A stretch of DNA of 64,000 nucleotides from Anaerobaca lacustris (lineage in GTDB: Bacteria; Planctomycetota; Phycisphaerae; Sedimentisphaerales; Anaerobacaceae). The position numbers and the translations under genes were made by a program. The notes beneath the pieces were generated by a model, which made no database searches, was not told the DNA's origin, and saw nothing but the letters and a program-made list of their open reading frames with translations. Location: assembly GCF_030012215.1 (NCBI RefSeq), contig NZ_JASCXX010000004.1:124001-188000 (forward strand). The letters run 5' to 3'. Shown here one piece after another: positions 23,352 to 45,337 of the stretch; the first letter of the stretch is position 1, and each line of letters begins with the position of its first letter.

Positions 23352-23371
23352 GGGCGAAGCATGCGTCGCCC
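23352..23371. repeat. REP-like palindrome, degenerate family A
   Basis: GGGCGAAGCATGCGTCGCCC differs at one position from the perfect 20-bp palindrome found at 42963 and 43098. It is followed by CCTGCC, where the other copies have CCTAC. Confidence 0.6.
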
Positions 23372-23437: not shown

Positions 23438-23517
23438 TCTGGGGTGTCATGCGAGGCCGCACGACCTACGGGACGCCGGGCCATCCGACAGATCGTGCGA
23501 CGAACCGTACCCCGCCA

Positions 23518-37980: not shown

Positions 37981-38043
37981 GTAGGATGGGCTTTAGCTCA
38001 TGCTGCATCTTCAATCGGCCGCATGGGCTGAAGCCCATCCTAC
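37981..38043. repeat. Inverted pair of GTAGGATGGGCTTTAGC-type REPs
   Basis: Two copies of a 23-base repeat face each other (37981-38003 and, inverted, 38021-38043) around a 17-base loop, forming a large hairpin. Each copy begins GTAGGATGGGCT and contains its own small dyad (ATGGGCT with AGCCCAT, with one mismatch in the first copy). A third copy lies inside the gene at 43013. Paired inverted REPs of this sort are typical BIME-like units. Confidence 0.8.
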
Positions 38044-42867: not shown

Positions 42868-42962
42868 TACAGAAAATCTCCATTTTCTGAGAAATTCTCT
42901 TGGGACAGGCTGCCGGGCGTTTGCTTGACAGGGCCGTCGGGCAGGCGGACAATGGCCTGCAA

Positions 42963-42985
42963 GGGCGACGCATGCGTCGCCCCTA
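42963..42985. repeat. REP palindrome, family A
   Basis: The perfect 20-bp palindrome GGGCGACGCATGCGTCGCCC followed by CTAC, so the GTAG base is on the minus strand. It ends 27 bases before the start of the DUF4091 gene, and an identical copy lies inside that gene at 43098. Confidence 0.8.
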
Positions 42986-43012
42986 CCAAAACACATGGCG
43001 AAAGGAGCAACG

Positions 43013-45337
43013 ATGCGGCGAAGGGGCATTTCTGTGGTTGTTCTCATGGCGTTAGGCATCGTAGGATGGGCTTTAGCCCATGCGGCCAAACCAGCTTGGG
43101 CGACGCATGCGTCGCCCCTACGGGAATATGGCGAGGCGCTGGGCGGCTCGACCGCGCAGGTCGGATTGTGGTGGGCGTCATCGGGCTGGAAGATCGGACG
43201 GGATCGGGCGTTGCCGGCCGCGACAGGCGAGGCCATTGTCATCGCTGCGGCGAGGAACGAGGCGGAGGCGGCGCAGCTCGTGGTGCGACCGAGCACGGCC
43301 TTGAAGGGTCTGCGGATCGCCGCCGGAGCGATGGTCGGGCCGGATGGGGCCGCCATGGACGCCGCCTGTGTCGAGGTGCTCGAAGTCCGCTACGTCAACG
43401 TCACGATGCCGACGGACAAGAGCGCCGTCGCGGGGCACTGGCCCGACCCCCTACCCCCATTGACCGGCCCGATCGATCTGGAGGCCGGCAAGAACCAGCC
43501 CTTCTGGGTCCGCGTGAAGGTCCCGGCTGACGCCCGCGCGGGCCTCTACAAAGGCACGCTGAATCTGACGGCCGATGGCTATTCGGCTCGCGTGCCGCTG
43601 CACGTCGAGGTCTACGATTTCACCCTGCCCGACAAGATGACCTGCAGCACCGCCTTCGGATTCAGTCCGGGCAACGTCTACCGCTATCACAAGCTGACCA
43701 CCGACGCGCAGAGGCGCGAGGTCCTAAACAAATACTGGGCCAGCTTCAGCGACCACCACATCTCGCCCTACAACCCGGCGCCGCTGGATCCGGTCCGTGT
43801 GACGTGGCCTGACATCAAACCGCCTGAGCGCAAGTGGCAAGGCGGTCGCGAAGTGACGAACGAGAGGCACGGCGGCACGCGCTCGCTGCTGATCTTCGAC
43901 GACCGCACCGATGAAAGCGTCCAGGCGAGCTACGAGCCGCTGGTATCGATCCCCGAAGGCGGTCTGCGGCTTTCGTTCTGGTATCGCACGGCGATCCCGA
44001 ACCAGGTCTTCCTGGTGACGCTCACCCATCACGACGGCGACGGCCAGTGGATCTGGGGCGGCAACAACGACATCGGCATCGAAGGCAACGGGCAATGGCA
44101 GCAGTTCGATCGCGTCATCACGAAGTTCCCGTCGAACGCCAAGAGCGTTCGTCTGATCCTGCGCGCCGCGGCCTGGACGGAGGAGGGCGAGCAGACGGGC
44201 TTGGTCTGGTTCGACGACGTATCGCTTCGCGACGCCGGCACAGGCCAAGAGCTGATCGAGGGAGGCGACTTCGAGCCGCCGGCACTGCCCGAGGTGGACC
44301 GCGAGAAGCTGCGCGTGACGCTCGATTTCTCCGCGTGGGACCGCGCGATGGAGCAGGCCATCGATCGGTGGCATTTCAACTCGTTCCGGCTGGGCATTCC
44401 GGGCATGGGCGGCGGGACGTTCCACGCGCGGACCGAGCCACAGTTGCTCGGCTTCGGCGAGGAAACGCCCCACTACCAGGCGCTCTTCCAGGACTACTGC
44501 CGACAGATCGAGCGGCACCTTCGCGCCAAGGGCTGGCTCGACGAGGCGTTCGTCTACTGGTTCGATGAGCCGGACCCGAAGGACTATTCGTTCGTCAATA
44601 ACGGCTTCGCCAAGCTCAAGGCGGCCGCCCCGGACATCCGCCGGATGCTGACCGAACAGGTCGAGCCGGACCTGATCGGCGGGCCCGATATCTGGTGCCC
44701 GATCTCGAACCACTACGACCACGAATCGGCCGAGAAGCGACGGGCCCACGGGGAGAAGTTCTGGTGGTACGTCTGCACGGGACCCAAGACCCCCTACTGT
44801 ACGCTGTTCATCGACCACCCCGGTACGGAGCTGCGCGTCTGGCTCTGGCAGACCTGGCAGCGCAAGATCGACGGCATCCTGGTCTGGGAGACGAACTACT
44901 GGACCAGTTCGGCGGCCTATCCCGACCACCCGCAGAACCCCTACGAGGACTCGATGGGCTGGACGAGCGGCTACAGCACGCCGGCGGGCGTCAAGCGGCC
45001 CTGGGGCAACGGCGATGGGCGGTTCATCTATCCGCCTCTGGCGGCGGCCGACGCCAAGGCGAGCGGGCCGGTGCTCGAAGGGCCGGTCGACAGCATTCGA
45101 TGGGAGATGCTCCGCGACGGGATCGAGGACTACGAGTACCTCGCCATGCTCAGCCGCCTGATCGAGGCCAAACGCCGCAAGCTCTCGGCGTCTCAGCGAG
45201 CGAGCTACGCGGCCCTGCTGGAGGTCCCACCCGAGATCACGAAGGACATGACCACCTTCACAACCGACCCGGCCCCCATCGAGCGGCACCGCGACCGCGT
45301 CGCCCGCGCGATCGCGGAGTTGGGCCGCATCGAGTAG
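43013..45337 (+). CDS. Exported DUF4091/GH123-like glycosidase
   Basis: A 774-aa exported protein. ATG 43013 follows AAAGGAG; an ATG six codons upstream is rejected because that ribosome site lies within it. The signal peptide (MRRRGISVVVLMALGIVGWALAHA) is partly encoded by a REP. An N-terminal beta-sandwich (about 45-205), an inserted carbohydrate-binding-like module (about 255-410, with LRLSFWYRTA and GLVWFDDVSLRD), then a TIM-barrel catalytic part with FVYWFDEPDPKDYSF, whose Asp-Glu pair matches GH123 catalysis, and ILVWETNYWT. Likely hydrolyses a host or algal polysaccharide amino sugar; specificity unknown. Confidence 0.83.
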   Translation: MRRRGISVVVLMALGIVGWALAHAAKPAWATHASPLREYGEALGGSTAQVGLWWASSGWKIGRDRALPAATGEAIVIAAARNEAEAAQLVVRPSTALKGLRIAAGAMVGPDGAAMDAACVEVLEVRYVNVTMPTDKSAVAGHWPDPLPPLTGPIDLEAGKNQPFWVRVKVPADARAGLYKGTLNLTADGYSARVPLHVEVYDFTLPDKMTCSTAFGFSPGNVYRYHKLTTDAQRREVLNKYWASFSDHHISPYNPAPLDPVRVTWPDIKPPERKWQGGREVTNERHGGTRSLLIFDDRTDESVQASYEPLVSIPEGGLRLSFWYRTAIPNQVFLVTLTHHDGDGQWIWGGNNDIGIEGNGQWQQFDRVITKFPSNAKSVRLILRAAAWTEEGEQTGLVWFDDVSLRDAGTGQELIEGGDFEPPALPEVDREKLRVTLDFSAWDRAMEQAIDRWHFNSFRLGIPGMGGGTFHARTEPQLLGFGEETPHYQALFQDYCRQIERHLRAKGWLDEAFVYWFDEPDPKDYSFVNNGFAKLKAAAPDIRRMLTEQVEPDLIGGPDIWCPISNHYDHESAEKRRAHGEKFWWYVCTGPKTPYCTLFIDHPGTELRVWLWQTWQRKIDGILVWETNYWTSSAAYPDHPQNPYEDSMGWTSGYSTPAGVKRPWGNGDGRFIYPPLAAADAKASGPVLEGPVDSIRWEMLRDGIEDYEYLAMLSRLIEAKRRKLSASQRASYAALLEVPPEITKDMTTFTTDPAPIERHRDRVARAIAELGRIE
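43061..43121. repeat. Two REPs inside a signal-peptide coding region
   Basis: A GTAGGATGGGCTTTAGCCC-type repeat (43061-43083) and, 15 bases on, a family-A 20-bp palindrome with CTAC (43098-43121) lie in frame in the DUF4091 gene. They encode VGWALAHA and ATHASPL, which form the hydrophobic end, cleavage region and first mature residues. Confidence 0.8.

Follow-up and report, generated by a model that had tools for sequence, protein, structure and literature searches.

GTAG-tagged REP elements, which have spread in one planctomycete genus, probably entered the signal-peptide sequence of a GH123-like glycosidase gene, where their presence is best read as a tolerated exaptation at a permissive site. 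The gene lies in a 64-kb window (the whole stretch of DNA analysed here, G000:C4:124001-188000; positions below are those of the window unless another locus is named) of the 5.73-Mb genome G000, whose closest named relatives are Phycisphaerae metagenome genomes. It occupies positions 43013..45337 on the plus strand and encodes 774 amino acids with an N-terminal signal peptide; the product has orthologues and matches Pfam families PF13320 (GH123_cat, E 9e-25), PF22680 and PF19543, GH123 N-terminal domains among them. PF13320 was formerly called DUF4091, the name under which the gene appeared in a preliminary description of this DNA. An NCBIfam search of the protein returned no family name, and the product is probably a secreted sugar-cutting enzyme.

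REP copies in the GH123-like gene and its leader

As the preliminary description had it, two REPs lie in frame at the 5' end of the gene, at 43061-43121; both are GTAG-tagged, and the stretch corresponds to codons 17-37 counted from the ATG at 43013. The first is an exact family-B REP (GTAGGATGGGCTTTAGCCCATGC, GTAG plus hairpin; 43061..43083, plus strand), which provides codons 17-24, V-G-W-A-L-A-H-A, and is followed by a B-dimer spacer (43084..43097, plus strand) that sequence comparison found to be common to the window and the orthologous locus of genome G001. The second, recognised by repeat search and by alignment with G001, is a family-A REP with its GTAG tag on the minus strand (GGGCGACGCATGCGTCGCCCCTAC; 43098..43121), which stands in place of the right arm of the B dimer and contributes A-T-H-A-S-P-L as codons 30-36. 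The coding element of the window is a hybrid, in which the left half and spacer of a B dimer are kept and the right half is swapped for an A palindrome. G001 carries the complete B dimer at the same site (GTAGGATGGGCTTTGGCCCATGC-GGCCAAACCAGC-TTGGGCTCAAGCCCATCCTAC, coding for VGWALAHAAKPAWAQAHPT), and over the 41-nt block from GTAGG to TTGGGC the two genomes differ at one position, which is synonymous. The presence of the B block in the independent genome G001 led us to reject an assembly artefact in the GH123 case.

The further family-A copy that had been reported upstream of the start was located in the 5' leader, at 42963..42986, with its GTAG tag on the minus strand (repeat search and comparison). 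It begins ~10 nt past the -10 box of a predicted sigma-70-type promoter (TTGACA-17-GACAAT; 42925..42953, plus strand), which is kept in the orthologues of G001, G002, G003 and G005 as TTGACA-17-GAGAAT or GACAAT by sequence comparison, and a Shine-Dalgarno site (AAAGGAG) lies upstream of the ATG. The G002 leader holds another A-type REP and those of G001, G003 and G005 hold none, so that interspecies variation in 5' mRNA hairpins at the start of this gene is possible.

The first 16 codons (43013..43060, plus strand), coding for the n-region and the proximal hydrophobic region of the signal peptide (MRRRGISVVVLMALGI), are inherited, being conserved in REP-bearing and REP-free orthologues. The end of the hydrophobic stretch and the Ala-x-Ala cleavage region are encoded by REP B, as proposed in the preliminary description: MRRRGISVVVLMALGI continues directly into the REP-coded V-G-W-A-L-A. 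By inspection, the product has the layout of a Sec signal peptide, MRRRGIS / VVVLMALGIVGWALA / ALA or AHA. In an AlphaFold model (AF2, 30 orthologues), residues 1-36 have pLDDT < 50 and values reach ~90 from residue 41; the fold starts at about residue 40, so nearly all REP-coded residues lie outside it, and a helix at residues 9-20 corresponds to the hydrophobic core.

Six-frame readings revealed how such a repeat can be accommodated in a coding sequence. In every family, the GTAG tag read in frame 2 gives a TAG stop, and frame 1 is open in all of them, yielding V-G-A (A), V-G-W-A-L-A (B) and V-G-R-A-S-S (C); the minus-strand reading of family B contains A-W-A. Signal peptidase I requires small residues two apart (the -3/-1 rule). 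Because GTAG(G) gives V-G-A, V-G-W or V-G-R, and families A and B add V-G-A or A-L-A, which fit this rule, the REP-bearing sequence still reads as a signal peptide. Candidate cleavage positions, judged by the -3/-1 rule only, lie after ALA (before H) and after AHA (before A), and from the sequence we infer that cleavage at the REP-coded site would be functional.

Repeat families and a candidate mover

Families B, A and C are GTAG-tagged REP elements. In each, a palindromic stem with a short loop, the trait of the GTAG REP superfamily, is present, and the unpaired GTAG tag abuts the stem (on the minus strand in A); hairpin DNA folding gave -6.5, -9.9 and -10.6 kcal/mol for B, A and C, respectively, with z of -2.6 to -5.1. 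The 5.73-Mb genome contains 20 exact copies of the B sequence, and 62 with ≤3 mismatches, as against 0 in the reversed-pattern control. The 20-bp family-A palindrome GGGCGACGCATGCGTCGCCC, with CTAC behind it, has 24 exact genome copies (control 0), GTAG-tagged A with ≤3 mismatches yielded 275 strand hits versus 4 in the control, and a search for A-type palindromes with the arm sequence left free found 106 (control none). For the family-C REP GTAGGTCGTGCGTCCTCGCACGA, 36 copies with ≤3 mismatches are present in G000. Chance similarity as the source of the matches was rejected on these copy numbers and reversed-pattern controls.

Pairs of B elements in opposite, head-to-head orientation occur ~33-40 bp apart, the dimer inside the G001 gene being one of them; repeat search found another such BIME-like pair between genes at 37981..38043 of the window. 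The same search placed an A-type REP (GGGCGAAGCATGCGTCGCCC) between two likely genes at 23352..23371, adjoined by a family-C copy on the minus strand at about 23447-23469. Perfect GTAG-A hairpins were absent from 55 of the 61 genomes searched and present in five of the genus and in one genome from another genus of the family. This last genome, G029, has 34 + 41 exact GTAG-A strand hits, compared with 0 in the other 30 family members searched, which suggests that this genome gained the REP family independently or by transfer.

A RAYT-type HUH transposase probably once mobilised the GTAG-tagged REPs. The candidate is a 230-aa Y1/HUH protein (G000:C17 near 116.0-116.5 kb) that resembles RAYT/TnpA_REP, the Y1 HUH transposase of REPs, in its Y1_Tnp domain (PF01797, 53 bits against a cut-off of 23), its HVHLI HUH motif and a degenerate B copy ~100 bp from the gene start, and differs from it in an NCBIfam REP_Tyr_transpos score of 62 bits, below the cut-off of 80, and in that a REP was observed at a single flank of the gene, close to a contig end. 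Its role as the mover of these REPs is uncertain. Near the contig end, the RAYT-like gene (G000:C17:115.0-116.6 kb; L211:5984-6764, L155) has as direct neighbours a tRNA-like sequence and an ORF resembling an integrase (L155:7-1026), and it may belong to a tRNA-associated integrated element.

Orthologue states at the coding site

The G003 orthologue is REP-free throughout its 5' end and has a complete signal peptide (MRRQAFLLAIILLGSMVTAQAISQDYF), and the signal peptide of G002 is likewise complete and REP-free (MRRRGISLAVVLMASVTVAGAASQDYL). The repeat therefore replaced the distal part of the signal and did not create it. Of the earlier proposal that a selfish repeat had been domesticated as an export signal, what stands is that the REP supplies this distal part; the origin of the signal is older than the REP, and 'domesticated' goes beyond the data. 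No orthologue was found to share the region without REP similarity at the DNA level: in the REP-free orthologues, the DNA at the REP site is unrelated. G005 has an exact C REP at the same site, which codes for VGRASSH and leaves the length unchanged relative to REP-free orthologues. The site thus presents a series comprising no REP (G003, and G002 within the signal peptide), a B dimer (G001), a C REP (G005) and the B+A hybrid of the window. Further on in the gene, another A-type REP is common to G002 and G005 only (STLVGANDDSPVLWW versus STAQVGLWW).

Under the favoured reading of insertion into a permissive site, most REPs would have settled between genes and a minority would have entered reading frames where these tolerate it, at loops, linkers, termini and the signal-peptide/mature junction. 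The B dimer would have gone into the 3' end of a signal-peptide sequence already present, in an ancestor or a donor that the window shares with G001, taking the place of the distal h-region and the c-region, and an A REP would later have taken over the right arm of the dimer in the lineage of the window.

No single tree accommodates all the element patterns. The window resembles G002 upstream of the gene and G001 within the signal peptide, and the downstream A-type element is confined to G002 and G005, yet by pooled protein identity G000, G001 and G005 belong together at about equal closeness (87-88%), with G002 at 81-83%, G003 at 74-76% and G004 at 66-71%. This makes it likely, as far as five genomes can indicate, that REPs were exchanged in place at this site or that lineages recombined. 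One specific form of this process, in which homologous recombination or template switching anchored in the GTAG/CTAC ends swaps the resident REP family in place between species, is possible if somewhat doubtful. It accommodates these conflicts as well as the length-neutral replacements, namely the G005 C REP and an A REP that, in an orthologue alignment, replaces sequence in a ClpC-like protein with its length unchanged, both of which count against simple transposition. However, a Clp N-domain protein with a VGANHDSP insert shows a clean gain of 21 nt in G000 only, five relatives being without it, which fits insertion, and telling exchange apart from loss would take more than five genomes. Such exchange is compatible with entry at a permissive site and may be part of it. 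It is rather unlikely, although conceivable, that GTAG REPs are pre-adapted as signal-peptide cleavage regions through V-G-x and small residues, and that the genus renews the c-regions of its secreted enzymes by REP exchange at the same site.

In-frame copies across the genus and known systems

Gene positions were analysed in 83 REP-centred stretches of the own genome together with the 64-kb window. Of 175 distinct A, B and C copies, 141 lie outside called genes, 26 wholly inside and 8 across a gene end. About 25 own genes contain in-frame REPs, including those for QueA (434 bits against a curated model), the Clp N-domain protein, a HisC-like aminotransferase, a ferredoxin/MinD-like protein, an SSF transporter and a sulfatase with a Tat signal, and, by inspection, a ThiG-like protein. 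The REP-coded segment of QueA reads KGDACIAPT. In G002 alone, ~20 of 75 A copies are in frame, counts that contain duplicates as the G002 loci partly overlap. In-frame REPs are specific neither to the GH123-like gene nor to signal peptides, usually falling in loops and linkers, and in-frame insertion is a genus-wide phenomenon.

The HisC-like gene carries different A-type REPs in different species, which are old shared inserts with divergent arms. Across the copy L190:8347-9405(+) and its orthologues (L306, L261, L258 and L262), an in-frame A-type hairpin is present in four of five species, with arms that differ and pairing that is mostly kept (AAACATCTTT, AAAGATCTTT, AAACACTTTT, AGACATGTCT), which may reflect exchange or compensatory change. 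Another gene, L204:13010-14578(-), and its orthologues L311 (G005) and L313 (G001) contain an in-frame A-type REP, into the loop of which a second palindrome, TCCGCCTCTGGCGGA, is nested in G001 and G005. Related TCCGCC/GGCGGA hairpins occur in frame in the ThiG-like gene of G005 (L314), and a fourth REP-like family of this type seems to exist. In a small protein gene (L181:5674-6387, plus strand), a whole B dimer codes for VGWASAHAADTAWAKAHPT; this dimer is common to G005 (L270), and G002 and G003 are without it.

A search for other signal peptides with REP translations, suggested in the preliminary description, was productive. Five own genes have a REP at the signal-peptide/mature junction by hand assignment: the GH123-like gene, the Tat-signal sulfatase (L187), an esterase-like gene (L175:8416-10440), a BNR_2 gene with a family-C copy (L199) and L201. 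In G002, the junction REPs are in GH5-like (L349) and TIM-barrel (L377) genes, and in G005 they are in the GH123-like gene (the C REP) and L316. L201 and its orthologues parallel the GH123 case: G002 is REP-free here, and the A-type REPs of G000 and G005 are offset from each other by six residues.

These genes bear on the question of true domestication, in which a REP-coded signal would have been selected for better or tuned export, or leader and coding hairpins would tune translation of secreted enzymes, the REPs being recruited as a result. Several junction-REP genes encode secreted carbohydrate-acting enzymes, and with the discovery case excluded, 4 of 24 REP genes have the repeat at the junction, compared with ~1.3% of codons (p 2.6e-4), a hand count that leans towards excess by setting hand-called cases against an automatic background. 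The automatic counts are weak: the strict count gave 2/23 in the own genome (p 0.037) and the count in G002 gave 1/21, which is not significant (p 0.26), both being too low as the codon-usage gene finder missed signal peptides, after which genes were extended upstream. An excess within the first 40 codons was found in both genomes (p 0.014 and 0.025). Between G000 and G001, identity is 97.6% over the 41-nt B block and 91.7% over the preceding 48 nt, but this contrast, of one substitution in the block to four in the stretch before it, is not significant and fits recent insertion or conversion. Moreover, junctions are permissive places in any case, and many in-frame REPs are in cytosolic proteins such as QueA, HisC and Clp-N. 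Adaptive domestication is unproven and, in our judgement, improbable; we read the junction as a permissive place rather than a REP target.

That the REP is untranslated 5' DNA, with the true start downstream, is very improbable and was rejected: the codon-usage gene finder did place the start at 43280, downstream of the REP, and general caution has been expressed about N-terminal REPs of other species (PMC3733652), but the MRR-x-hydrophobic starts, n-region, hydrophobic region, Shine-Dalgarno site and promoter coincide whether or not an orthologue bears the REP, an indel of 3 nt precedes the REP, and a downstream start would lose the signal peptide together with conserved residues such as LWWASSGWK.

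Entry of GTAG REPs at a permissive coding site would offer a simple route from non-coding mobile repeats to protein sequence with a recognisable function. The states of the GH123 site in close relatives (no REP, B dimer, B+A hybrid, C REP) form a natural comparable series, with which questions left open in 2013 become testable: whether N-terminal copies are translated, whether they alter the protein and how REPs replace one another. A literature search limited to open-access papers found none linking REPs with signal peptides.

GTAG REPs were described as short palindromes with an unpaired GTAG tag, arranged in head-to-head dimers and mostly intergenic; Planctomycetes are among their reported hosts, and the verrucomicrobium O. 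terrae has them in abundance (Di Nocera et al. 2013, PMC3733652). The same study noted some in-frame copies inside ORFs, over-represented at N-termini, considered many N-terminal copies probably untranslated and drew a comparison with rickettsial palindromic elements (PMC3733652). In-frame GTAG REPs are thus already known, as are the Rickettsia palindromic elements (RPEs), likewise palindromic repeats in frame in many unrelated protein genes (PMC3733652). Compared by description, RPE-1 is longer than the REPs of the window, the REP-type elements of rickettsiae are of the CGTC class (PMC3733652), and the RPE host is an obligate intracellular alphaproteobacterium, unlike the planctomycete host here. 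The REPs of the window match the GTAG REPs of Di Nocera et al. in palindrome, tag, dimers and in-frame copies. Whereas signal peptides are unmentioned in that work (PMC3733652), here orthologues show an N-terminal copy to be part of the coding sequence and the source of the cleavage region, and one coding site bears different REP families in sister species; an N-terminal copy shown to be coding, the role as a signal-peptide c-region and the occurrence of several REP families at one coding site seem not to have been described before.
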